The notes beneath the pieces are model-generated. The model ran no database searches, was not told where the DNA came from, and saw nothing but the letters and a program-made list of their open reading frames with translations. 34,685 nucleotides of DNA from Duncaniella sp. (GTDB lineage Bacteria; Bacteroidota; Bacteroidia; Bacteroidales; Muribaculaceae). Below are positions 3,128 to 21,355 of the stretch, in pieces. The number at the start of each line of letters is the position of its first letter. Positions within the stretch are counted from its first letter, which is position 1. The stretch lies in contig JAMPEV010000001.1 in assembly GCA_023664955.1 (NCBI GenBank), positions 52,936 through 87,620 on the forward strand. Direction: 5' to 3'. The position numbers and the translations under genes are program-made.

Positions 3128-3427
3128 ATGCATGTAATCTCACATAGAAAGTTGAAGGAGTTTTACGAAACTCCGGGCCGAGAAGACTCCAAAGTGGCGT
3201 TGGAACGTTGGTACAATGCCGCCCTCAGTGCCGATTGGCACAACTTATCCGAGATAAAGGATGATTTCCCTACGACGGACTATGTCGGCAATCAACATTA
3301 TGTATTTGACATACGAGGTAATAAATACCGACTTGTCGTTGTAATCAAGTTCACAATAGGAAGAATTTTCATCCGTTTTGTGGGAACACATGCTGAATAT
3401 GACAAAATTGATTGTTCAACCATCTAA
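3128..3427 (+). CDS. higB: HigB-family type II toxin
   Basis: A 99-residue HigB-family toxin (RelE-like mRNA interferase superfamily) that is expected to cleave translated mRNA. The recognisable features are the N-terminal MHVISHRKLKEF strand-helix, the central LERWYNAALSADW helix, and the C-terminal core GNKYRLVVVIKFTIGRIFIR followed by FVGTHAEYDKID. That ending is the hallmark of this family. The length is normal, so the toxin looks intact. It precedes its antitoxin by four bases, the reversed toxin-first order typical of hig loci. A promoter lies immediately upstream. Confidence 0.92.
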   Translation: MHVISHRKLKEFYETPGREDSKVALERWYNAALSADWHNLSEIKDDFPTTDYVGNQHYVFDIRGNKYRLVVVIKFTIGRIFIRFVGTHAEYDKIDCSTI

Positions 3428-3431
3428 ATAT

Positions 3432-3797
3432 ATGGATATGGAGATTTCAAAAGAACAATATGAATACGCTCTTAACCGCATTGAGGAGCTGTTGCCACTG
3501 GTGACAGACGAGACTCCTGCCCACGACAAAAATGCGCTGGAACTTACCATTGTCTCCGATGTGGTTGAGGAATACGAGAAGATACATTATCCAATCGCGA
3601 AACCCACGATTGGAGATCTCATAAGTCTTTCTATCGAAGAAAGAGGTATGACTCAGAAGCAGCTTGCATCTGAAATTGGTGTGAGTCCATCAAGAGTCAA
3701 CGACTATATTTCCGGGCGCGCAGAGCCTACACTCCGAATAGCGCGAGCCATCTGCACTGTCCTTGGAATAGCTCCGGCAGCAATGCTCGGAATGTAA
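3432..3797 (+). CDS. higA: HigA-family antitoxin with helix-turn-helix
   Basis: A 121-residue antitoxin and transcriptional regulator. I chose the ATG at 3432 (MDMEISKEQY) over an in-frame start 54 bases upstream, because that start would overlap higB and add residues unlike the family. Residues 1-60 form the toxin-neutralising segment, with the motif RIEELLPLVTD. Residues 60-121 are an HTH of the Xre/Cro type (MTQKQLASEIGVSPSRVNDY). It should bind HigB and repress the shared promoter. A truncated second copy of its N-terminal segment lies 80 bases downstream. Confidence 0.92.
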   Translation: MDMEISKEQYEYALNRIEELLPLVTDETPAHDKNALELTIVSDVVEEYEKIHYPIAKPTIGDLISLSIEERGMTQKQLASEIGVSPSRVNDYISGRAEPTLRIARAICTVLGIAPAAMLGM

Positions 3798-3879: not shown

Positions 3880-4002
3880 ATGAAGATAACAGAAAAAGAA
3901 TACGAGGCATCTCTCAAACGAATTGATGAACTGCTACCGCTGGTGACAGATGATACTTCCGATGACGACCCCAACCTGATTGAATTGTTGAAGATCTCAG
4001 AC
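3880..4002 (+). pseudogene. Truncated second higA-like antitoxin (N-terminal segment only)
   Basis: Codons 1-41 (MKITEKEYEASLKRIDELLP... to KISD) align closely with residues 3-46 of the intact HigA, sharing the YE.(A/S)L.RI.ELLPLVTD core. After about position 4000 the frame continues to a stop at 4062, but that portion is antisense to the yhcG-like gene and has no antitoxin character. The DNA-binding domain and any partner toxin are missing. This is a paralogous antitoxin fragment, divergent in sequence, so it is not a simple recent duplication of the adjacent gene. Confidence 0.8.
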
Positions 4003-4569
4003 TACCACCAGGCAATTCAGTTCTCGGTTGAAAAACAGCAAATCGGGGAAGAAGTCATGTGAATAAACCTCAAGGTGATACTGATTGCCTACGAAAGCGA
4101 AATCATGTCCGAAAGTCATGATGAATTTTTTGATGTTATGGACAATTTCTTTCTCCACCACACATTCATCTATGTCCTGCATATCGCGGATGCCTATTTC
4201 CTCGGTGTTGATGAAGTCAAGGAGATATTCATCTTTGAACATGTTGAGGGCTTTGATTGCATCACGGCTATTCTTGATTGTTGCCCCGAAATTTGATGGC
4301 ATCACTCCATAATGGTCAGCTACATCCTCTTTGATTTGCTGCTGTAGAAAACGAGTGTCCCATTTGTTTTCAAGAGCCAACTTGATATATTTCCATCGCT
4401 TGGTTACATCTTTTTCGCCATTCAGGATTACCATGTGATGACTGAAACTCAGATTGAGGAACAACTCCAAATCGTCAACCATGGCTGACGATTTAACCGG
4501 GAGCAACGACTTCGTGTCAATTTCGTCAGTCGTGGCTGACGATTTGGTTGTCGTATCGGTCGAAGTCAT
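3997..4569 (-). pseudogene. Truncated YhcG/DUF1016-type PDDEXK nuclease
   Basis: The 190-residue frame resembles DUF1016 proteins: a segment like the end of the YhcG N-terminal domain (SFSHHMVILNGEKDVTKRW), then the nuclease core with FGHDFAFVGNQYHLEV and DLLFFNRELNCLVVV. It stops exactly where the family continues with the catalytic Glu-x-Lys and about 100 more residues, so the active site is incomplete. The break coincides with the end of the higA fragment at about 4000. The N-terminus is also short for the family and starts with a low-complexity Thr/Ser/Asp stretch. A possible -7 box (TAATTTTG, complement of 4622-4629) lies upstream without a clear -33 element. Confidence 0.75.
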
Positions 4570-4697: not shown

Positions 4698-5648
4698 TCA
4701 GGGTATTTCTATTTCGTTAATGTCAATGATGTGATGGAGAATGGCATATACTGCCATTCCTGCCACTGAATGTATGTTCAGTTTTTCGCCTATGCTTTTG
4801 CGATAGGAATTTACCGTGTGAAAGGAAAGGCACATCTTATCCGCTATTTCCTTTGTGGATAATCCCCGGGCAATCCAACGCAATACTTCTTTCTCCCGGT
4901 CGGTCAAAATATTCTCTTCAGCTTCATTTGCGGAGTCTTCCTCTTTGATTTGTTCTTCTCGCTTATTTTTCAATTCACGTTCCAATTTCTCAACCTGGGG
5001 AAATAGAAGGTGATTCTCTATTTCACAGTGTTGAATGAGGTCTTTCCCGCATAGCATGAGATGAATCAAGGCGGTATTTATCATCTCATTGTTCTTCTGT
5101 TTATATTTATATATGAACAGTTCTTTCAAATCATTGAGTTTCGCCGCCATGTGGTCATGACCCAAGGAGAAATCAGATATTTTGAATTGGTCGCAGACGA
5201 CTCCATTCAATAAGTTTTCGATATACGAAAATATTACCGTGTCCTCGTGGTCCATGTGTTTCTTTACCTCTTCTATGTAGTTGTCATAGAACTGTAAGAT
5301 TACAATGGCGATTTCAGGATTCTCGGCTTCATGGATTCCGTCTATCAACGTCTTCTTTATATAAGGTAGTGTATAGTCGGTAAATCGCGAATGTGATTTA
5401 CGCAAATACTCAATCAGAGACATTAGAGAGACGCTGTATGATTCCCAGCTCTTTCCGCTGATGAAATTTATGACCGCAAGGAAAGTGTCTGTATCCACTC
5501 CATTTTCAACACAAACCTTCTCAACAGCTCCATCACCGAAGCCGAGAGATATGTCAAAACGATTAAGAACCACAAGAAGGTTGTTGTTATCCTCAATAAT
5601 ATCTCTGAGAGAGTCGAAACGTGAATATGTCAGTTTATCTTTTATCAT
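4698..5648 (-). CDS. Hemerythrin-domain LuxR-type transcriptional regulator
   Basis: A 316-residue soluble one-component regulator with three parts. Residues 22-62 resemble the N-terminal segment of RIC/ScdA/YtfE proteins, but the usual vicinal cysteines are replaced by SLGFGDG (34-40). Residues 80-220 form a four-helix HHE hemerythrin-like domain with the expected di-iron ligand pattern: H86, H131 and E135, H166, H207 and E211. Residues 247-306 are a LuxR/GerE helix-turn-helix (LTDREKEVLRWIARG, then STKEIADKMCLSFHTVNSY). A charged linker at 220-246 joins sensor to DNA-binding domain. The fold suggests sensing of O2, NO or iron state. It is divergent from the porin-imelysin-cytochrome operon, so it is the obvious candidate regulator. 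Family assignment is firm; the ligand and target are inferred. Confidence 0.88.
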   Translation of the reverse strand: MIKDKLTYSRFDSLRDIIEDNNNLLVVLNRFDISLGFGDGAVEKVCVENGVDTDTFLAVINFISGKSWESYSVSLMSLIEYLRKSHSRFTDYTLPYIKKTLIDGIHEAENPEIAIVILQFYDNYIEEVKKHMDHEDTVIFSYIENLLNGVVCDQFKISDFSLGHDHMAAKLNDLKELFIYKYKQKNNEMINTALIHLMLCGKDLIQHCEIENHLLFPQVEKLERELKNKREEQIKEEDSANEAEENILTDREKEVLRWIARGLSTKEIADKMCLSFHTVNSYRKSIGEKLNIHSVAGMAVYAILHHIIDINEIEIP

Positions 5649-5673
5649 TGAAACGGCGCATTTTTTCCCAAAG

Positions 5674-5704
5674 CAAAATTACTACCTCCAAAAAAAAACT
5701 ACAA
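5674..5704 (-). promoter_or_regulatory. Promoter of the hemerythrin-LuxR gene
   Basis: On the minus strand, TTG (complement of 5702-5704), a 20-base spacer and TAATTTTG (complement of 5674-5681). The -33 box lies inside TGGGATTGT, the same 9 bases found over the -33 box of the facing porin promoter. Confidence 0.75.
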
Positions 5705-5797
5705 TCCCATAAAATAGGTATATTTTTATCAAGATTTGGGTAGAAACGAGAACTCAGATGATTTTTTTACATCAAAAACGCTAAAATGTGGGATTGT
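5701..5797. repeat. Inverted 9-bp repeat over both -33 boxes (candidate operator pair)
   Basis: ACAATCCCA at 5701-5709 and TGGGATTGT at 5789-5797 are exact reverse complements, one over each -33 element of the divergent promoters. Each therefore lies in the same orientation relative to its own gene. This suggests one DNA-binding protein, most simply the hemerythrin-LuxR regulator, controlling both directions. Part of the shared sequence is simply the promoter TTG, so only about six bases are informative. Confidence 0.5.
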
Positions 5798-5824
5798 CAT
5801 GGATTACATTCAACAGTAATTTTG
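5794..5824 (+). promoter_or_regulatory. Promoter of the porin-imelysin-DHOR-CcsBA operon
   Basis: TTG at 5794-5796, a spacer of exactly 20 bases and TAATTTTG at 5817-5824, a full Bacteroidetes consensus. The predicted start is about 18 bases before the porin ATG. GGATT occurs twice, 10 bases apart, across the -33 region (5791 and 5801). Confidence 0.78.
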
Positions 5825-5847
5825 CACTCCATAAATGACCAATCGTT

Positions 5848-7179
5848 ATGTGTAGAAAATTAAAAGCTTTATTTATAAGTGCTATGAGCTATTGCATGGT
5901 TTATGCAAGTGCTCCTTCCAATGAGCAACAATTGCCAAGAGACAGCACTGTGACCGCCATGAAATCAATGGAAAAAGTGGTTTCGAATTTGTCAAGACTT
6001 CACATAGGAGGTTATGGAGAGGTGGCTATGTCGCGCAATTTCTATAGCGACAACTATCTGCGCTATACTCAGCCTGAAAAATATCGCAACCAGTCACATG
6101 GGCGTTTTGACTTACCTCACGTTGTAATATACCTTGGCTATGATTTTGGTAAAGGGTGGTCGATGAGCAGTGAAATTGAATTCGAACATGGAGGTAATGA
6201 GTCAGCAATTGATATTGAGACAGAAGAAGCCGGTGAATATGAAAGCGAAATAGAGCGCGGTGGCGAAGTGGCACTCGAACAATTCTATATTCAAAAGGAG
6301 TTTATGCCTCAGTTGAAACTACGAGCTGGTATGCAGGTAGTACCGGTCGGGGCAACAAATGCTCACCATGAGCCGAATCAGTTTTTTGGAGTGTATCGTC
6401 CCGAGGGTGAGAACACCATAATGCCGTGTACATGGCACGAAGTATCTGTGTCATTGTCAGGTGACATAGGGAAGTGGTCATACATTGCGATGTTCCTGCC
6501 TGGCCTTGACTCGGAGCGGTTTGGCAACCAGTCGTGGATACATGACGGCTCGGCATCCCCATTCGAATTCAAGATAGCCAACAATTATGCATTTGCAGCG
6601 AGAGTTGACAATTATTCTGTAAAAGGGTTAAGATTGGGTGTAAGCGGATATGTGGGTAATTCTTTTAGAAACACATTGTATCCAACGTCATCGTCAAAGA
6701 ATGATGGTATTCACGGAACAGTTACGATTGCATCGTTTGACTTCAAGTATGACGATCACAATTTGTTGGCCAGGGGGTATTTTGACTGGGGCCATCTGAG
6801 CGATGCCGCCCACATAAGCAAATTTAATATTGCCATGTCAAAGAATTCCACATCCAAGCGTCAGGAGATAGCATCCGATGCTATTGCTGCAGGAATTGAA
6901 GCAGGTTATAATATTTTCGGTTTGATACCCAAGATGATGGCTAAAAATCAAAAATTCTTTGTTTTCGGGCGCTATGACTATTATGACTCAATGGCTAAAA
7001 TGGAAAGTGGCACTCCCCTCGGCTGGTGTGGCCGTCATAAAATAACGGCAGGGGTCAACTGGTATCCCATACCACAAGTAGTAATAAAGGGCGACTACAG
7101 TTATGGAATTCTAGAACGAAAATATAATAATGAGCCATCGATCAATATTGGCATCGCCTATACAGGCTGGTTTATGTAA
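5848..7179 (+). CDS. Outer-membrane porin-like beta-barrel protein
   Basis: A 443-residue exported protein. A signal peptide covers roughly residues 1-22, ending YASA. After a short linker, IGGYGEVAMSRNFYSDNY begins an alternating strand pattern that runs to the C-terminus (NIGIAYTGWFM), typical of 16- to 18-stranded porins of the phosphate-selective O/P type. The strand-rich body includes DLPHVVIYLGYDFGKGWSMS and ITAGVNWYPIPQVVIKGDYS. It is first in an operon, 21 bases before the imelysin gene. It may let an iron compound or small solute reach the periplasm, or provide a membrane partner for the two lipoproteins. Specificity cannot be read from sequence. Confidence 0.8.
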   Translation: MCRKLKALFISAMSYCMVYASAPSNEQQLPRDSTVTAMKSMEKVVSNLSRLHIGGYGEVAMSRNFYSDNYLRYTQPEKYRNQSHGRFDLPHVVIYLGYDFGKGWSMSSEIEFEHGGNESAIDIETEEAGEYESEIERGGEVALEQFYIQKEFMPQLKLRAGMQVVPVGATNAHHEPNQFFGVYRPEGENTIMPCTWHEVSVSLSGDIGKWSYIAMFLPGLDSERFGNQSWIHDGSASPFEFKIANNYAFAARVDNYSVKGLRLGVSGYVGNSFRNTLYPTSSSKNDGIHGTVTIASFDFKYDDHNLLARGYFDWGHLSDAAHISKFNIAMSKNSTSKRQEIASDAIAAGIEAGYNIFGLIPKMMAKNQKFFVFGRYDYYDSMAKMESGTPLGWCGRHKITAGVNWYPIPQVVIKGDYSYGILERKYNNEPSINIGIAYTGWFM

Positions 7180-7200
7180 ATTTTTAAATCAACATAAAAA

Positions 7201-8358
7201 ATGAATCTATTAAAACTTTTGACAATTGGGGTGGCTGCTCTGACCATGGCCAGCTGCTCCAACAGCGACGACCCGACCTCATCAGATGAATTGTCGGCCA
7301 AGGAGAAAGCACTTCAGGCGGCCACTGTGGATTATGTGAATCACACTGTATTGCCCACTTATGCAGCCATGGCAGATGCTGCGATTGAGATGTGTGACCT
7401 GTGCCACACCATGCAAGATAAATTTCTTGATGGATCTCTAACTCAGAGCGATGTTAAAGCTGCCGGTGACGCATGGAAACGCGCTCGTAAAAATTGGGAG
7501 TTAAGCGAGGCTTTCCTTTATGGGCCCGCTGCCAATCACAACATTGACCCCCACATTGACTCATGGCCTCTCGATAAGGCCGCTATGGAGAATCTTCTTG
7601 AACAGATAAGAAGAGGCAACCAGTGGACCCTTGAAAACAATGGTGGCTATGGCTTGATCGGCTTCCATGCAGTGGAGTTTATGCTTTTCGAGCTTAGCAA
7701 TGATGAGAACACTGCACTTGTTCACTCTACTGACTATACTTCAGAAGAACTTGAATTTCTTGTTGCCGTAGCTGATGACCTTTGCGCTCAGTGTGTATGC
7801 CTTGAGGCTTGCTGGGCTGGCATGGATAACATTTCTCAGCATAAGCAGGAAATCCTTGAAGAGGCCGAGCTCGACTACAACGAAAATTATGGCGACGAGA
7901 TGAAAAATGCCGGTCAACCCGGTTCACGCTTCAAAACTTACCAAGAGGCTGCTGAAGAAATTATTCAAGGATGTATCGACATTGCTGATGAGGTTGGCAA
8001 TACCAAGATTGGCCGTCCTCACATCGGGTCTTCTCTGGAGGATAAAAACTATATTGAATCCCCTTATTCACTCAATTCTATTGAGGACTTTGCCGACAAT
8101 ATCCGATCGGTAAGGAATGCTTATCTTGGTAGCAATAACGGAGATGCGAGCGTCAGTGACTACGTGCGCAGTCAAAACGCCGATGTTGACAAAGCAGTGC
8201 GCGAGGCTATACAAAATGCAATTGACGCTATTGAGCGGATTCCTGAACCATTTGCCAAGAATGCTGCTGGAAGCTTAAGCGCTAACGCTATGGAGGCCGC
8301 AGGCTCAACTCTGGTTGATGCTCTCGAAAATGCGATGTCAATTGTCGCAGGTCGTTAA
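7201..8358 (+). CDS. Imelysin-like (peptidase M75 family) lipoprotein with a CXXCH motif
   Basis: A 385-residue lipoprotein with lipobox TMASC (Cys19), so it is anchored to a membrane, likely the outer one. The imelysin signature GxHxxE is present as GFHAVE (154-159), and the four-helix-bundle character is clear (SEAFLYGPAANHNIDPHID at 102-120). Imelysin-like proteins are linked to iron uptake and are not proven peptidases despite the family name. Unusually, residues 65-69 read CDLCH, a canonical c-type heme attachment motif, in the first helical region. A second Cys cluster (CAQCVCLEAC) lacks the His. It is 17 bases before a di-heme oxidoreductase gene, and CcsBA is encoded two genes downstream, so heme attachment is possible. 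That is inference. Confidence 0.87.
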   Translation: MNLLKLLTIGVAALTMASCSNSDDPTSSDELSAKEKALQAATVDYVNHTVLPTYAAMADAAIEMCDLCHTMQDKFLDGSLTQSDVKAAGDAWKRARKNWELSEAFLYGPAANHNIDPHIDSWPLDKAAMENLLEQIRRGNQWTLENNGGYGLIGFHAVEFMLFELSNDENTALVHSTDYTSEELEFLVAVADDLCAQCVCLEACWAGMDNISQHKQEILEEAELDYNENYGDEMKNAGQPGSRFKTYQEAAEEIIQGCIDIADEVGNTKIGRPHIGSSLEDKNYIESPYSLNSIEDFADNIRSVRNAYLGSNNGDASVSDYVRSQNADVDKAVREAIQNAIDAIERIPEPFAKNAAGSLSANAMEAAGSTLVDALENAMSIVAGR

Positions 8359-8375
8359 CGATAATATTTAAGAAT

Positions 8376-10019
8376 GTGAAACTTAAACATATAAATTATT
8401 ATACAATGCTTGCCATACTCATGGCAAGCATTTCGTCGTGTTCAGATGACGCCATTACCGACGAGCCGGCACCCATCGACGAATTACCCGACTGGTACTA
8501 TGCCGGTGGCGAACTCGGTACAACTTTCCTGAGCACAAGTAACGCTTTGGAGCAACCTACACCGGCGGTGGAAAACCAGGGCCTGTATCAATCTTTTAAA
8601 AATGGCGAAGCAATATTTGAGAAGCCGTTTATGGCTAACCAGTCGGGCGTAAGGTCAGGGTTGGGGCCGGTGTACATACGCACGTCGTGTCTCCATTGCC
8701 ATCCCAACTACAGTCATGGCTCTCGCATACCTGAAGGCAGTTTTAATACAACCAATCCGGGCAACGGCTGCCTGCTGGTGGTGTATGACCCTCAAACCGA
8801 AGCTTATGTGTCGTGGCTTGCGGGAATGCCCCAAGGCCATGCAGTAGCTCCGTTTAAGGCACCAATCGACGAGTCAAAGATTACGGTGACATGGAAAAAC
8901 GCTACGGATGATTGGGGCAATCGCTTTGACGATGGCGAAACATACGAACTGTCATATCCGGAGGTAAATATGCCTAAGGATGCTATTTATGTAGTTTCAC
9001 AAGGCTATGAGCTGCCTACCGGATATGGGGTGAAACTCGAATCAACTATCGGAATTTTTGGCACTGGCTTGCTTGACGCTATCTCCGAGGCCGACATTCT
9101 TGAGCAATACAGAAAACAAGAGAAAGACGGCATCCTGCCCAATGGGCTTAACCCCGCCTTCTATAGCAGTGGCCAATGGACTTCAATGTATGCCAATTCG
9201 CTACAAGGCGACGGCACGGGGTATGTGCGTAGATTTACATACACCCTTTCGCGCGGTCCGCTTCAAGATGCTGCCGGAGCAAATGCTATCTGGAATATCA
9301 CAAATGTGACCCGCTCCGACCGCCGCTATCACTATTTAGATGCCGCCGGTTCCTACGCCAAGTATTCGGCATTGGATCCTGAGGTTCAGGCAGGCTTTGA
9401 GCAATATGTGCAGCGTATAGATCCGAATCACCGTCACGCTGCATATTGGGAGGGATCGATGGAACAACGCATTCTTGCGTACCTCAACGACAAGGAACTC
9501 GATGTGGAAATGACCGACGACGAGTACACCGACTTCATGGTATGGCATCGAGGACTCGCAATCCCGGCAGTGCGCGACATTGACAACCCTGATGTCAGAC
9601 GCGGACGTGAGCTATTCTCGCAGATTGGCTGCGACTATTGCCATCGTCCGTCATGGACCACCGGAGATGACAAGATTGTTGACCCCGCCAAGTTTTTTGT
9701 CGGTTCAGAATTGCCCCGTTACCCACATCAGAAGATATGGCCTTACACCGATATGGTGCAGCATAAGTTGATGATGATTAACGATATAAGGGGCGGCTGG
9801 TGTAGGACAACTCCGTTGTGGGCACGAGGTCTTCACCAAAAGGTAACAGGAAGTCCAACGGCCGACCGCCTTCACGACTGCCGTGCACGTACAACTATGG
9901 AAGCAATCATGTGGCACGGATATTCGCCCAATAGTGATGCACGCTATTGCATTGAAGCCTTCCGCAAGCTGAACAAAGCCGAGCGCGACGCTATAATACG
10001 CTTCGTTGATGCCATATGA
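8376..10019 (+). CDS. Di-heme oxidoreductase (DHOR/DUF1111 family) lipoprotein
   Basis: A 547-residue c-type cytochrome lipoprotein. I take the GTG at 8376 because it supplies a basic N-region (MKLKHINYY) before the hydrophobic stretch and the lipobox ending at Cys22; the ATG at 8406 would leave a signal without positive charge. Two heme motifs are visible: CLHCH at 105-109 and CDYCH at 419-423. Length and placement match putative di-heme peroxidases/thiol oxidoreductases, which commonly neighbour imelysin genes. It probably acts in the periplasm or at the cell surface as an electron-transfer or peroxide-reducing enzyme; the true substrate is unknown. Its stop overlaps the ccsBA start (ATGA), which indicates coupled translation. 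Confidence 0.87.
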   Translation: MKLKHINYYTMLAILMASISSCSDDAITDEPAPIDELPDWYYAGGELGTTFLSTSNALEQPTPAVENQGLYQSFKNGEAIFEKPFMANQSGVRSGLGPVYIRTSCLHCHPNYSHGSRIPEGSFNTTNPGNGCLLVVYDPQTEAYVSWLAGMPQGHAVAPFKAPIDESKITVTWKNATDDWGNRFDDGETYELSYPEVNMPKDAIYVVSQGYELPTGYGVKLESTIGIFGTGLLDAISEADILEQYRKQEKDGILPNGLNPAFYSSGQWTSMYANSLQGDGTGYVRRFTYTLSRGPLQDAAGANAIWNITNVTRSDRRYHYLDAAGSYAKYSALDPEVQAGFEQYVQRIDPNHRHAAYWEGSMEQRILAYLNDKELDVEMTDDEYTDFMVWHRGLAIPAVRDIDNPDVRRGRELFSQIGCDYCHRPSWTTGDDKIVDPAKFFVGSELPRYPHQKIWPYTDMVQHKLMMINDIRGGWCRTTPLWARGLHQKVTGSPTADRLHDCRARTTMEAIMWHGYSPNSDARYCIEAFRKLNKAERDAIIRFVDAI

Positions 10020-11881
10020 TAAGACATAACCCTTTTACCCTTTTGATACACATTGCACTGGTGATCATACTCGCCGGTGCATTGTGTACTCATTTCTTTG
10101 GAATACAAGGAGAAATTACAATCAAGGATTGTAAATCCTCCCAAATCTTCTCCAACACTTCCGGCACTGGATCTGACCGCCTTCCCTTCGGAGTGTCGCT
10201 AATTAACGCTGATGTAGAGTTTTATCCCGGCACAACAACACCGATGGACTTCAAAAGCACCATCTGTGTCAACAACAATGACTACAAGGTGTCGATGAAT
10301 AAACCCGCCTTAATAGATGGCTGGCGTTTCTATCAATCCGGAATGGACACTGATAGTTCTACGTTCACACTCAGTTATGACCCATGGGGAATATTCATAA
10401 CATATGTAGGGTACATAATGCTTGCAATTGGACTTATTGGATTTTTCTTTCAAAAAAACACGGCATGGCGATCTCTTATAAAACGGGGATCCTTATTAGG
10501 AATATTATTATGTCTTTGCAGCGGTATGGCAAATGCTTCAGAATTGCCTACAATGCAAAAACCTTTGGCAGCTAATCTGGGTAAAGTATATGTATATTGG
10601 AACGACCGTATTTGCCCCATGCAGACAATGGCTCGTGATGTCACCGTGAAGTTGTACGGCAGCGAATCTTATGAAGGTATGACATCGGAGCAAGTGTTGA
10701 CCGGCTGGTTATTTTATTTTGATGAATGGCTTACCGACTATAGCTCTAACAACCCGGAAATTAAGAGTCATGACATTGACAAGAAAAATAAAAAATTGCT
10801 CGAACGCAAGTATCTGATTTCAATTCTTGGCACGGGTGAAGCATTCAAAATCTACCCATATCAAACAACGGAGGGATTTACCGAATGGCTTTCACTGACC
10901 GGACGCCGACCATCCGGAATGTCATTGGAACAATGGAAGTTCATGCAGACAACAATGCCGCATATCAAGGAGTTGCTCCTTCATGGGAAGAACATTAATG
11001 CTAATGATGAAATCAATAGGCTCGTTGCAAATCAGAAGAAGTACGCCGGCGAAGATGATTTACCATCTGCGACCAAAATAAAAGCTGAAATCCTGTACAA
11101 TAGGTTTGTCCGCCCGGTCTATGGTGGTATCATTGCTCTATTGTTAAGCTCCGCTTTCTTGTTTTTCGGCCTATCAAAACGTAAAAGCGGTGTCAAACCA
11201 CTTCTTACATTTGTCCATGCCGCTTTGACCATCACTGTTGTAAACGCTGTGATGCTGTCATGGTGGCTTGGCGGACATGTCCCACTGTCAAATGGCTCTG
11301 AGATGATGATATTTATGGCGGCGATATCCCTCATCTTCGCCTTTTCATTAAAAGATGACATTGTAAAGGGTGCGTTGCTCATGGTTGCAGGTATGGCGCT
11401 CATGGTTGCAGGTATGGCATCAAGATCTCCTCAGATCGGTTCATTGATGCCGGTCTTGTCAAGTCCGCTGCTATCAGTTCATGTCATGGTAATCATGTGT
11501 GCATATGTGCTATTCCTTATGATGGCTGTATTGTCGTTAATAGCCCTTATCAGCAAAAACAACAAGTGCAAAGAAGATTTAAGTAGAATAAACAGAATAA
11601 TCCTGACACCGGCTGTGACTCTGCTTGCCATGGGCATTATGATTGGCGCCGTGTGGGCCAATCAATCATGGGGGCGCTATTGGGGCTGGGATCCCAAAGA
11701 GACGTGCGCATTTGTGATGTTGTTGGTTTACGCCATACCGCTTCATTGGGCTTGCCCTAAATGCAGATGTTTCCGCAAGCCTGATTTCCTGCATCGTTAT
11801 TTATTAATTGCATTGGTCACTGTCCTATTCACTTATTTCGGTGCCAACTTTCTAATCCCCGGCTTACACTCATATGCTTGA
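10016..11881 (+). CDS. ccsBA: Fused cytochrome c synthase CcsBA (System II)
   Basis: A 621-residue inner-membrane protein joining a ResB/CcsB-like half to a CcsA half. There is a membrane span at about 8-29, a periplasmic stretch, a second span near 127-147 and a third near 157-172, then a large periplasmic domain to about residue 368. After that come the CcsA spans with the heme-handling WWD motif WANQSWGRYWGWDPKET (547-563) and the typical GLHSYA C-terminus. The enzyme exports or positions heme and ligates it to CXXCH cysteines. It starts inside the stop of the di-heme oxidoreductase gene, so it looks dedicated to maturing that protein and perhaps the imelysin. A 7-residue tandem duplication (LMVAGMA twice) lies in one CcsA span. 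Confidence 0.9.
   Translation: MIRHNPFTLLIHIALVIILAGALCTHFFGIQGEITIKDCKSSQIFSNTSGTGSDRLPFGVSLINADVEFYPGTTTPMDFKSTICVNNNDYKVSMNKPALIDGWRFYQSGMDTDSSTFTLSYDPWGIFITYVGYIMLAIGLIGFFFQKNTAWRSLIKRGSLLGILLCLCSGMANASELPTMQKPLAANLGKVYVYWNDRICPMQTMARDVTVKLYGSESYEGMTSEQVLTGWLFYFDEWLTDYSSNNPEIKSHDIDKKNKKLLERKYLISILGTGEAFKIYPYQTTEGFTEWLSLTGRRPSGMSLEQWKFMQTTMPHIKELLLHGKNINANDEINRLVANQKKYAGEDDLPSATKIKAEILYNRFVRPVYGGIIALLLSSAFLFFGLSKRKSGVKPLLTFVHAALTITVVNAVMLSWWLGGHVPLSNGSEMMIFMAAISLIFAFSLKDDIVKGALLMVAGMALMVAGMASRSPQIGSLMPVLSSPLLSVHVMVIMCAYVLFLMMAVLSLIALISKNNKCKEDLSRINRIILTPAVTLLAMGIMIGAVWANQSWGRYWGWDPKETCAFVMLLVYAIPLHWACPKCRCFRKPDFLHRYLLIALVTVLFTYFGANFLIPGLHSYA
11377..11417 (+). repeat. 21-bp in-frame tandem duplication inside ccsBA
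   Basis: GCTCATGGTTGCAGGTATGG occurs at 11377-11396 and again at 11398-11417, a period of 21 bases. It duplicates seven codons (LMVAGMA) in a hydrophobic segment and lengthens that membrane span. The identity of the copies suggests a recent slippage event. Confidence 0.9.
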
Positions 11882-11897
11882 ATTCCTTTAACAATAT

Positions 11898-12135
11898 AAT
11901 CCTACGGGCATAACACTTGGACTATGTATTTTTTTGATAATCGGTGTTTTCTATCCTTTAATTATTAAGGGAGAATATTATTTCGGCGTGAAATGCTGGT
12001 GGGCGTTCTTTATCATGGGGTTGTCTACTATGGCCTTATCAATATCTAACGACAATTTCTTTTGGTAAAACACTGCTTGCCGTAATAGCTTTCTCATGCT
12101 TTTGGAGCATACTTGAAGTTTTTGAACAGAAGAAA
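11898..12135 (+). pseudogene. Decayed DUF4491 family membrane protein gene
   Basis: From 11898 one frame reads NPTGITLGLCIFLIIGVFYP, then IIKGEYYFGVKCWWAFFIMG, up to a stop at 12066-12068. The frame shifted by one base resumes from 12064 with TLLAVIAFSCFWSILEVFEQ followed by KK. Together these give the body of a DUF4491 protein, a family of about 100 residues common in Bacteroidales. No start codon precedes the first part; TAT stands where ATG would be expected. The second frame runs into unrelated sequence and stops at 12190-12192. Lost start, frameshift and lost tail make this a pseudogene. It lies directly after ccsBA on the same strand. Confidence 0.8.
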
Positions 12136-17841: not shown

Positions 17842-18513
17842 ATGTGGTTAACTTGCTCATCCATAGGAAGGAAGTTCGTGATGGCACTCACCGGACTATG
17901 CCTTGTCCTATTTGTCACGTTTCACTGCTTGATGAACGCTGTGGCTATCTTCTGGCCTGACGGCTACAATGCTGTATGCGCATTCCTTGGCGCTAACTGG
18001 TATGCCCTCATCGCCTCTATCGGCCTAGCCGCCCTATTCATCATTCACATCATTTACGCTGTCTGGCTCACACTACAAAACCGCAAAGCACGCGGTAACG
18101 ACCGCTATGCAATTGTGGCTAAACCCGCTCAGGTGGAATGGGCCTCACAGAACATGCTCGTGCTCGGTATTGTAATCCTTGCATTCCTCGTAGTGCACAT
18201 GATCCAATTCTGGGCAAAGATGCAGCTCGCTGAAATCCTCGGCCAGCACTGGCCCGACCCACAAGACGGTATGTACTTCATCAACCAGGCATTCAGCTGC
18301 TGGATTACCCCCGTGGTTTATGTTATCGGATTCGTTGCACTCTGGTTCCACATGAACCATGGCTTCTGGTCAATGTTCCAAAGCTGCGGCTGGGACAACG
18401 ACACTTGGATCAATCGCCTGAAATGCATCGGTCTGTGGTGGACTTCCATCGTGGTTGTTCTCTTCATCATTGAAGTTGTCGTATTCACAATCCGTGCCTA
18501 CACCGGCATCTGA
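17842..18513 (+). CDS. sdhC: Succinate dehydrogenase/fumarate reductase cytochrome b subunit
   Basis: A 223-residue integral membrane subunit with five spans, in the di-heme b architecture of the epsilonproteobacterial fumarate reductase type. Histidines H28, H69, H119 and H170 (or H173) each sit in a span and are the expected axial ligands of two b hemes. It anchors SdhA/B to the inner membrane and exchanges electrons with menaquinone. First gene of sdhCAB, 39 bases before sdhA. In anaerobic Bacteroidetes the complex usually runs as fumarate reductase for succinate production. Confidence 0.95.
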   Translation: MWLTCSSIGRKFVMALTGLCLVLFVTFHCLMNAVAIFWPDGYNAVCAFLGANWYALIASIGLAALFIIHIIYAVWLTLQNRKARGNDRYAIVAKPAQVEWASQNMLVLGIVILAFLVVHMIQFWAKMQLAEILGQHWPDPQDGMYFINQAFSCWITPVVYVIGFVALWFHMNHGFWSMFQSCGWDNDTWINRLKCIGLWWTSIVVVLFIIEVVVFTIRAYTGI

Positions 18514-18552
18514 GCATTTTAATTAACAAAACAATTCTCTACATTAACATAT

Positions 18553-20580
18553 ATGGCAGATATTAAGAACCTTGAGGGTATGATTGACTCTACCCCCATC
18601 ATGAAGGATTTTGCCGACATCGAATCCTCCAAGCTCCCTGAATATCAGATTGATTCCAAGATTCCTGAAGGTCCTTTAGCTCAAAAGTGGACTAACTACA
18701 AGGCACATCAGAAACTTGTGAACCCCGCCAACAAGCGTAATCTCGACGTAATCGTCGTAGGCACCGGCCTGGCCGGCGCTTCTGCGGCTTCATCACTCGG
18801 CGAGCTCGGTTTCAACGTATATAACTTCTGCATCCAGGATTCACCCCGCCGCGCTCACTCTATCGCCGCCCAGGGTGGTATCAATGCCGCTAAGGATTAT
18901 CAAAACGACGGTGACTCCGTTTACCGCCTATTTTACGATACAATTAAAGGTGGTGACTTCCGTTCCCGTGAAGCCAATGTATACCGACTCGCTGAAGTGT
19001 CAAACAATATTATCGACCAGTGCGTGGCCCAAGGTGTTCCATTTGCCCGTGAATACGGCGGCCTCCTTGCTAACCGTTCATTCGGTGGCGCCCAGGTGTC
19101 ACGTACCTTCTATGCTAAAGGTCAGACAGGACAGCAGCTCCTTCTTGGTGCTTACGCGTCACTCAACCGCCAGATTAAGAAGGGTACAGTCCGCTCTTTC
19201 AACCGTCGCGAAATGCTTGATGTGGTTATCATCGATGGTCGAGCACGCGGTATCATCGTACGCAACCTTATCACCGGAGAAATCGAACGCTATGCTGCTC
19301 ATGCAGTAGTACTTGCCACCGGCGGTTACGGTCGTGCCTTCTTCCTTTCCACCAATGCTATGGGCTGCAACGGCTCTGCTGCAATCCAGGCTTTCAAGAA
19401 GGGTGCTTACCTTGCCAATCTCGCATTCACTCAGATTCACCCCACATGCATCCCCGTTCACGGTGAAGACCAGTCAAAGCTCACACTTATGAGTGAATCA
19501 CTTCGTAACGACGGCCGCATCTGGGTTCCCAAGAAGAAAGAGGACGCTGAGGCCATCCGTGCCGGTAAGAAAAAACCGACCGATATACCCGATGAAGATC
19601 GTGACTTCTACTTGGAACGACGCTATCCCGCATTTGGTAACCTCTGTCCGCGCGACATCGCAAGTCGCGCTGCTAAAGAGCGATGCGACGCCGGTTACGG
19701 TGTAGGTACCGGTAATGCTGTATACCTCGACTTCAAATATGCCATCGACCGTCTCGGCGAAGATGTGGTTCGCGACCGCTACGGCAACCTCTTCGACATG
19801 TACCAGATGATTTCTGATGACAATCCTTATGAGACCCCGATGATGATTTTCCCAGCAAGCCACTACACCATGGGTGGTATCTGGGTTGACTACGAACTCC
19901 AGACCTCAATCAAGGGACTCTTCGCAATCGGCGAATGCAACTTCTCTGACCACGGAGCTAATCGCCTTGGCGCTTCCGCTCTCATGCAAGGTCTCGCCGA
20001 TGGTTACTTCGTGCTTCCGTACACAATGCAGAATTACCTCAGTGATCAAATCAAGGTGCCTCACTTCACCACTGACACAAAGGAATTTGACGAAGCTGAA
20101 AAGGCCGTACGCGCACGCATCGAGAAACTCATGAACATCAAGGGAACCAAATCACCTGACCAGATTCACAAACGCCTTGGACATGTGATGTGGAATCTCG
20201 TTGGTATGGGTCGTACTCTCCAGGGGCTCGTTAAGGCAATTGAAGAAGTGGAAGAAGTGCGTAAAGAATTCTACACTGACCTCCGAATCGTTGGTAAGGC
20301 TGACGACCTCAACACCGAACTCGAAAAGGCACTCCGTCTCGAGGACTTCCTTGTTATCGCAAAGATGATGGCAATCGACGCACTCAACCGCAACGAATCA
20401 TGCGGCGCACACTTCCGCGAAGAGTATCAACTCGCCGACGGAGAAGCAGCACGTAACGACAAGGACTATATGTATGTCTCTTGCTGGAAATACACTGGCG
20501 ACAACGAAAAGCCCGTACTCTTGAAAGAACCCCTCAACTACACTGAAATAAAGGTTCAAACACGTAACTACAAGTCATAA
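18553..20580 (+). CDS. sdhA: Succinate dehydrogenase/fumarate reductase flavoprotein subunit
   Basis: A 675-residue FAD subunit carrying the active site. GTGLAG (70-75) is the dinucleotide-binding loop, [11 protein letters not shown] contains the covalent-flavin His102, HPTCIP begins at His296, and RLGASAL includes Arg471 of the substrate site. The C-terminal domain contains [13 protein letters not shown]. The roughly 60-residue N-terminal extension before the Rossmann fold is a Bacteroidetes trait. It sits between sdhC and sdhB, 19 bases before the latter. It interconverts fumarate and succinate on the cytoplasmic face. Confidence 0.96.
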
Positions 20581-20599
20581 GTCAAAAAGAATTGAAACA

Positions 20600-21355
20600 A
20601 TGGAACATACTATAAATGTAAACCTCAAGATTTGGCGTCAACGTGGTCCTAAAGAACCAGGGGCGTTCAAAAACTACCGCGTTGAGAACGTTTCAACCGG
20701 CAGCAGCTTCCTCGAAATGCTCGACATGCTTAACCAGCAGCTCGTTGAACAAGGCGAAGAGCCTGTAGTGTTTGACAATGACTGCCGCGAAGGTATCTGC
20801 GGTATGTGTTCTCTTTACATCAATGGTCATCCCCACGGACCAGTTCAGGGTATCACCACATGCCAGCTTCACATGCGTAAGTTCAACAATGAGGACACCA
20901 TCACCATCGAGCCATGGCGCTCAGCTGCATTCCCGGTGATTCGCGACCTCATGGTGAACCGTAACGCATTCGACCAGATCCAGCAGGCTGGTGGCTACGT
21001 GTCATTCAACTGCGGCGGTGCTCCCGACGCTAACGATATTCCCATCTCTAAGGAAGTTGCCGACGTGGCAATGGACTCCGCTACTTGCATCGGTTGCGGT
21101 GCTTGCGTGGCTGCATGTAAGAATGGTTCTGCAATGCTCTTCGTAGGTGCCAAGGTGAGCCAGTTCGCCCTCCTTCCCCAGGGTCAAGTTGAACGCGCCC
21201 GCCGCGCTCGTGCCATGGTTAAGAAGATGGATGAACTTGGCTTCGGTAACTGCACCAACACAGGCGCATGTGCTGCTGAATGTCCCAAGAACGTTCCACT
21301 CAGCAATATCGCTCGTCTCAACCGTGAGTTCATCAAAGCTAAATTCGCTGACTAA
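20600..21355 (+). CDS. sdhB: Succinate dehydrogenase/fumarate reductase iron-sulfur subunit
   Basis: A 251-residue electron-transfer subunit with all cluster ligands. Cys62, 67, 70 and 88 (CREGICGMC plus TTCQ) bind [2Fe-2S]. Cys163, 166 and 169 with Cys228 bind [4Fe-4S], and Cys173, 218 and 224 bind [3Fe-4S]. It links the flavin in SdhA to the b hemes in SdhC. Last gene of the operon; a terminator follows 43 bases after the stop. Confidence 0.96.

Follow-up and report, generated by a model that had tools for sequence, protein, structure and literature searches.

The window analysed here is a stretch of 34,685 nucleotides (nt) from a Duncaniella sp. (Bacteroidales; Muribaculaceae; assembly GCA_023664955.1, contig JAMPEV010000001.1, positions 52,936 to 87,620), and our subject is a locus within it at which the gene for a hemerythrin-LuxR regulator diverges from a four-gene operon. 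The assembly that carries the window is 2.18 Mb in size and 82.7% complete. The regulator gene (4698–5648, minus strand) encodes 316 amino acids (aa) with a degenerate RIC-like N-terminal region, an HHE domain at residues 78–218 (Pfam Hemerythrin, 1.9e-7) and a GerE/LuxR helix-turn-helix (HTH) at residues 247–302 (GerE, 4.4e-18). On the plus strand lie the genes for a porin-like outer-membrane barrel of 443 aa (5848–7179; Porin_O_P, 1.9e-5, weak yet above its cut-off), an imelysin (M75) lipoprotein (7201–8358; Peptidase_M75, 2.2e-47), a di-heme oxidoreductase (DHOR) lipoprotein with a GTG start (8376–10019; DHOR, 3.6e-37) and a 621-aa CcsBA System II cytochrome c synthase comprising a short ResB part and CcsA (10016–11881; Cytochrom_C_asm, 5.5e-32; ResB, 3.1e-18). 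Gaps of 21 and 17 bases separate porin from imelysin and imelysin from DHOR, and the DHOR and CcsBA frames share four bases (ATGA). A preliminary description of this DNA had given the five genes with the same coordinates, gaps and overlap and had named them as a di-iron-type regulator, porin, imelysin, DHOR and CcsBA, all of which the reading frames and Pfam matches bear out. It had missed that the 199-bp divergent gap between regulator and porin holds two operator/promoter elements, and had likewise passed over an interrupted DUF4491-like frame at the ccsBA stop. We consider it likely, from sequence comparison, that the locus is an iron-starvation operon for iron uptake at the cell surface, under an autoregulated, CdhR-like regulator of the hemerythrin-LuxR (di-iron) type.

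Alignment of promoter regions from this and related loci gave a rare element of 19 bases that they share, TACY-N8-RGKA-TTG, in which a 16-bp dyad (TACY-N8-RGKA) runs into the TTG at -33. The -7 box of Bacteroidetes promoters has the consensus TAnnTTTG, and every such box detected after a best site starts 20 nt past the TTG. In the window, the operator at the regulator's own promoter (5702–5720, minus strand) is an exact match to TACYNNNNNNNNRGKATTG, and a Bacteroidetes-type box, TAATTTTG, lies 20 nt past its TTG (5674–5681, minus strand). The operator at the operon promoter (5778–5796, plus strand) has an exact right half, GGGATTG (5790–5796), and the same box, TAATTTTG, at the same distance of 20 nt from its TTG (5817–5824, plus strand). 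Across the whole assembly GGGATTG-N20-TAnnTTTG occurs exactly just twice, both times between regulator and porin; with one mismatch allowed, right half plus box gives 11 matches, compared with 2 in a reversed control. The dyad and TTG alone are unspecific when the promoter box is left out, since they give 10 matches in the assembly and 14 in the reversed control. Sigma-70 and terminator scans returned nothing exceeding chance.

The locus was compared with relatives obtained through DHOR. A DHOR search of 297 Muribaculaceae genomes gave 62 positives, among which G048 and G107 were omitted for fragmented matches, 57 provided new loci and 3 were already in the set; a scan of named Bacteroidales genomes gave at least 567 DHOR loci, the best 80 of which were kept, so that the set leans towards close relatives. 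The 140 loci were reduced to 119 by removing identical DHOR cores, with at least 4.2 kb upstream of DHOR in 103 of them and less in 16. DHOR is accompanied by the porin in 115 of these 119 Bacteroidales loci, by imelysin in 116 and by CcsBA in 114; judged by gene content, it is these four genes, as the operon porin-imelysin-DHOR-CcsBA, that form the conserved unit. The regulator adjoins or lies near the operon in 24 of the 119, namely divergent upstream in 16 (the window, L053, L067, L120, L122, L211, L213, L214, L216, L217, L225, L251, L256, L258, L260 and L262; in L053 a DUF4491 gene stands between the two), farther upstream in two (a split pair in L221, fused in L267) and convergent downstream in six (split pairs in L228, with a very distant hemerythrin, and in L239, L241 and L246; fused in L268; the HTH part alone at a contig end in L242). 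We therefore reject a fixed five-gene module, the compact and apparently self-contained unit of the preliminary description. Linkage, on which that description had also staked the connection between regulator and operon, is usually absent, yet linked and unlinked loci share the operator, which indicates control in trans as well. In the remaining loci the upstream neighbours look mostly unrelated, save for some that recur within a clade. One of these, described as a DUF308 gene, occurs in five loci of Bacteroides type (L227, L229, L230, L235, L248) as a divergent gene for a protein of 190–211 aa upstream of the porin; the DUF308 match is that of L230, where the gene also has an exact element of its own.

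A search for hemerythrin domains gave 123 matches, or 88 without duplicates and short ones, 86 of which had enough upstream DNA for comparison of operators. On a tree of the 88 domains the 22 operon-linked rows sit on scattered branches and require nine label changes; linkage has therefore been gained or lost many times, and a single operon-linked clade of regulators is rejected. Fused and split forms number 75 and 13, with three changes of form on the tree.

The element recurs at both kinds of gene. Exact 19-base matches stand upstream of 46 of 108 porin genes, as against 0 of 1,080 dinucleotide shuffles, and when a slightly longer upstream stretch is taken, the exact element is there at 47 of the 85 loci without linkage and at 7 of the 23 with it. 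If one mismatch is allowed, it precedes 24 of 64 unlinked regulator genes, compared with 8 of the 380 other genes in the neighbourhood of such regulators (p=4e-16), one of the eight being the gene divergent from the regulator in L041. The full element with its box was found in 126 of the 297 Muribaculaceae genomes, the reversed pattern giving 0 in every row. Six named genomes of Bacteroides, Phocaeicola and Caecibacteroides (27.8 Mb by rounded sizes) hold 14 element sites and no control matches; each genome has one of these sites at a porin gene, assigned in four genomes from the porin frame that follows and in two by identity to the L235 and L240 porin sites. Resolved to unique sites, matches with no more than one mismatch numbered 99, of which 72 lay at porin genes, 7 at regulators and 20 elsewhere. 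A generic promoter element can be rejected, because other TTG-N20-TAnnTTTG promoters at the loci peak at 5–6 mismatches; the background set of 261 such promoters still contained 23 exact element sites. At five loci (L237, L239, L241, L243, L246) a further element with at most one mismatch, together with a -7 box, lies 49–78 nt past the ccsBA stop and is directed outward from the operon. Four of these loci have no frame of at least 80 aa starting within 500 nt, and a small gene or RNA may perhaps follow. The presence of the element at both promoters suggests that the hemerythrin-type regulator controls the operon, and other iron genes in relatives; control of the operon itself is probable on the motif evidence, and the DNA logic of the locus is well supported at that level.

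The regulator combines features of two known families. Six candidate di-iron ligands, H86, H131, E135, H164, H207 and E211, have the identity and spacing found in RIC proteins, and 83 of 88 aligned sequences have them all; YtfE holds two irons by means of these six residues, and RIC-type di-iron sites bind nitric oxide (NO) and O2 (PMC9268430). The protein has SLGFGD where RIC proteins have DfCCgG, its Cys46 is invariant (88 of 88; L022 alone has a Cys-Cys pair, somewhere in residues 21–70), and it scores 54.6 bits with the RIC model TIGR03652, whose cut-off is 204.7. Because the six ligands are kept while the cysteine motif is absent and the score is under the cut-off, we describe it as RIC-like and reject membership of RIC. 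The fusion of an HHE domain to a GerE/LuxR HTH is the domain composition of the hemerythrin-CdhR regulators, reported as split pairs in Porphyromonas gingivalis (PG1236-PG1237) and Bacteroides thetaiotaomicron (BT0519-BT0520) and as a fused protein in Prevotella intermedia (PIN17_RS10465), with low iron raising the split forms about 7-fold in P. gingivalis and 16–20-fold in B. thetaiotaomicron (PMC10434189). The same source describes CdhR as regulating hmuYR, calling the mechanism unclear and iron binding unproven; elsewhere CdhR is said to activate hmu, and in one mutant cdhR rises together with a TonB receptor and a DUF4876 gene (PMC10101095). The HTH part of the window regulator shares 40% identity across 101 aa with a LuxR protein that lies beside an element in Phocaeicola barnesiae.

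DUF4491 genes adjoin unlinked hemerythrin-LuxR genes (L043, L046, L049, L050, L054, L361), and one stands directly behind an element in L332. In the window a DUF4491-like frame (11874–12068, plus strand) overlaps the ccsBA stop; its sixth codon is an in-frame TAA, after which it is open for 58 codons, and PF14898 was identified on relatives only. Given that the family neighbours unlinked regulators and follows one element, the small protein is possibly a part of the system that has decayed in the window. Just past the regulator gene lie a HigB-type toxin with an HTH antitoxin (3128–3797) and a partial YhcG-type nuclease frame (3997–4569).

Among the element matches listed, 60 other sites, chosen away from known porin and regulator genes, were fetched with their surroundings; four of them lie at further regulators (L335, L361, L369, L373). 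The first gene encodes a TonB-dependent receptor at ten sites and FeoAB at four, and is cysK-like at six that are described below, the rest being mixed or unrecognised. All four FeoAB sites were scanned and confirmed, and the seven receptors scanned all resemble TonB-dependent receptors; those of L343, L370 and L374 are similar to receptors for heme, siderophores or B12, though none reaches a family cut-off, and in the other scanned ones the similarity is weak. A CbiK-type protein follows the L343 receptor and a DUF4876 protein that of L356. The preliminary description had proposed a response to O2, NO or iron, and iron acquisition or peroxide reduction at the cell surface; of these, iron response and iron acquisition are best supported, by the feoAB and TonB receptor sites and by the iron-regulated counterpart in B. 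thetaiotaomicron described below, and iron acquisition is the best-supported role for the operon.

A number of observations weigh against an iron-uptake operon under this regulator. At most one mismatch from the element, 40 of the 64 unlinked regulator promoters and 24 of the 85 unlinked porin promoters have no site, and in the window the left half of the operon site is degenerate (ACGC), giving 3 mismatches at the 11 specified positions. Only 41 of the 60 other sites have their first reading frame within 300 nt, and at 46 of the 60 the first gene is not one for iron transport. Five regulators (L256, L258, L260, L262, L267), all operon-linked, lack the ligand at the H164 position while keeping the other five, and may, from the alignment, have altered or single-iron sites. 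The likeness of the window regulator to CdhR is one of domain composition and description. In 99 Muribaculaceae genomes the fused regulator is found in 12 of 23 with the operon and 33 of 76 without it (p=0.48), and on this co-occurrence a regulator dedicated to the operon is rejected. Such chance-level co-occurrence, together with the absence of linkage in 95 of the 119 loci (16 of the 119 having under 4.2 kb upstream), would also fit an accidental adjacency of two functionally unrelated units; but the same element stands at both promoters, at the assembly's only two exact sites for right half plus box, and recurs across the Bacteroidales in linked and unlinked loci, and we regard accident as very improbable.

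Six of the 60 sites (L348, L364, L365, L368, L376, L379) precede cysK-like genes, one of which was scanned and belongs to the PALP family. Their inner sequence differs: five of the six carry a related but distinct element, TACC..GTGGTATTG, with the inner bases GTGGTA, which occur in none of 48 exact porin sites. A NarL-type regulator of 215 aa adjoins some of the cysK-like genes and may serve these sites. FUR-family proteins are nearly universal, in 97 of the 99 genomes (Fur, PerR and Zur not distinguished), and may contribute; replacement of the FUR family by the hemerythrin-LuxR regulator is not supported on this count. These findings, and the presence of the element in 11 of 44 genomes that have no strong hemerythrin-LuxR match, would be accounted for if another regulator of LuxR/NarL or Fur type bound the element and the hemerythrin regulator were its target, not its controller. 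The 16-bp dyad, however, fits a dimer of the GerE/NarL type, NarL sites having a 7-2-7 geometry. The element is also commoner in genomes with a strong hemerythrin-LuxR match (fused, or E up to 4e-40; 30 of 55, against 11 of 44; p=0.004), the regulator recurs beside the operon (24 of 119 loci), and the GTGGTA bases set the cysK-type sites apart as a separate subclass. Control by such another protein is in our judgement unlikely.

A different signal must also be weighed, in which the HHE domain would sense O2, NO or peroxide and the operon would be a response to oxidative or nitrosative stress in which DHOR acts as a peroxidase. The domain is RIC-like, and di-iron sites of that kind bind NO and O2 (PMC9268430); the annotation of DHOR is that of a putative peroxidase. 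Three of the 39 regulator loci viewed, L043, L046 and L049, have a rubrerythrin gene close to the regulator (two were scanned, and L046 was assigned by sequence likeness), and another such gene diverges from the receptor site of L356; these positions would fit an oxygen or peroxide signal too. Against this, such genes as are recognised immediately after the element serve iron transport, and in the relatives the response is to iron starvation (PMC10434189). We judge a stress signal to be rather unlikely and retain iron starvation as the probable one.

The preliminary description had called two of the operon's proteins lipoproteins, and the lipobox cysteine is indeed invariant among aligned relatives, at Cys19 of imelysin (115 of 115, 96 of which fit a simple lipobox pattern) and Cys22 of DHOR (119 of 119, with 103 fitting it). 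In the porin, residues 109–144 (E109–E144 in the window, including H114) are rich in Glu and nearly invariant across 115 sequences, the His among them being invariant; such a stretch is not usual in general porins and hints at metal binding. The imelysin scores 162.4 bits against a PF09375 cut-off of 23.5; its GxHxxE motif (GFHAVE, at 154) is kept in 115 of 115, and residues 34–367 match 4ecg in one stretch and the permuted 3n8u in two, which gives the canonical order. DHOR exceeds the PF06537 cut-off and has two CXXCH heme sites (C105–H109 and C419–H423). Its identity to genes from other genera reaches 80%, and to those of its own genus, in which the operon occurs in 8 of 27 genomes, it is 64–74%; since cross-genus identity exceeds that within the genus, horizontal transfer is likely. 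A plasmid search gave DHOR relatives in two records only, at 52% and 36% identity. Elsewhere in the window (17842–21355) are flavoprotein and iron-sulfur genes of the succinate dehydrogenase/fumarate reductase type, preceded by a gene for a 223-aa protein that has no Pfam match.

CcsBA has the ResB and CcsA parts, the WWD motif (WGRYWGWD, at 552) and the conserved His residues of a System II synthase, with WGRYWGWD, H12, H489 and H577 conserved in 98–100% of 98 sequences; its score lies under the TIGR03144 equivalog cut-off (126.8 against 187.6 bits). It is the only Cytochrom_C_asm match in its 82.7% complete assembly, in which no match to NrfA was found. Among the 23 operon genomes of the 99, 20 have exactly one Cytochrom_C_asm match, which in 19 lies beside DHOR on the same contig; in G001 it is on another contig, the DHOR contig ending just past the gene. 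Of the other three, two have a second match and one has none, its DHOR contig ending inside ccsBA. Among the 76 genomes without the operon, 22 have a Cytochrom_C_asm match over the cut-off. As the synthase is usually the sole match and lies beside DHOR, and the window's own assembly has one and no NrfA, CcsBA is very probably dedicated to DHOR.

We infer iron sensing and DNA binding by the regulator, and with them what the signal is, which way control runs and what chemistry takes place, as follows. When iron is scarce, the HHE domain would lose or alter its di-iron site, and the LuxR domain of the apo or altered regulator would bind the dyad, which would be centred near -43, a class II activator position, if the box lies as expected. 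The regulator would then activate the operon and, amplifying itself, its own gene. Imelysin at the cell surface would bind iron, the di-heme DHOR would change its redox state, and the Glu-rich porin would admit it or pass it on. The operon would carry its own CcsBA because DHOR has to receive two hemes by covalent attachment when the genes for other cytochromes c are silent or missing; the single synthase in 20 of 23 operon genomes, and the fall of nrf expression in low iron (PMC10434189), suggest why a surface iron operon has a heme-attaching enzyme of its own.

More tentatively, and as a possibility rather than an expectation, the hemerythrin domain may itself be an iron gauge, a labile di-iron site that empties and thereby directly activates the LuxR domain, so that the Bacteroidales would have a second iron regulon beside that of the Fur family. 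Its targets would be the regulator itself, feoAB, receptors of the heme/siderophore type and the imelysin-DHOR-CcsBA operon. FBXL5 has a eukaryotic iron-sensing hemerythrin domain, of which the regulator would then be a bacterial analogue. With an operator, a target list, conserved ligands and an invariant Cys now supplied, the question of an iron regulator becomes directly testable.

Knowledge of iron regulation in Bacteroidetes has been called scarce (PMC10434189). That paper lists both the hemerythrin regulator and the imelysin operon as iron-regulated, and the words motif, regulon, promoter and binding site are all absent from its main text; in the literature found, as far as its consulted text goes, there is no statement that the hemerythrin regulator controls an imelysin operon and no operator, and earlier work on a CdhR binding site is possible. 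The preliminary description held the unit to be undescribed; the type of regulator is in fact known (PMC10434189), and it is the connection between regulator and operon that was not found in the literature. The operator, the regulon and this connection are new as far as our searches reach.

The closest counterpart to the operon is BT2473-BT2482 of B. thetaiotaomicron, where porin, thiol oxidoreductase, peptidase M75 (imelysin) and CcsA genes, with others, lie together and are up 62.7–323.7-fold in low iron, while the nrf operon of that species, which has its own ccsAB, is 30–36-fold down (PMC10434189). It differs from the window operon in its gene order and in adding fimbrillin-family and hypothetical genes and another HTH regulator, and the consulted text names no hemerythrin regulator for it (PMC10434189). 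Imelysin is likewise paired with a di-heme oxidoreductase, with a proposed role in iron uptake, in the IrpA/imelysin-DUF1111 operons and in EfeUOB (PMC3143127). In contrast to these, the window operon adds a porin and a dedicated CcsBA, and its proposed control is by a hemerythrin-LuxR regulator instead of the Fur reported for some of the known ones (PMC3143127); no EfeU (Ftr1-type) permease is among its genes by Pfam, and membership of EfeUOB is rejected. With YtfE and ScdA the regulator shares six di-iron ligands in identity and spacing, and it differs from them in lacking DfCCgG at that place, in its invariant Cys46 and in its C-terminal LuxR DNA-binding domain (PMC9268430). With the hemerythrin-CdhR proteins, split or fused, it shares the union of a hemerythrin domain with a DNA-binding regulator, whereas the window regulator is fused and diverges from an imelysin/DHOR/CcsBA operon with which it shares an operator.

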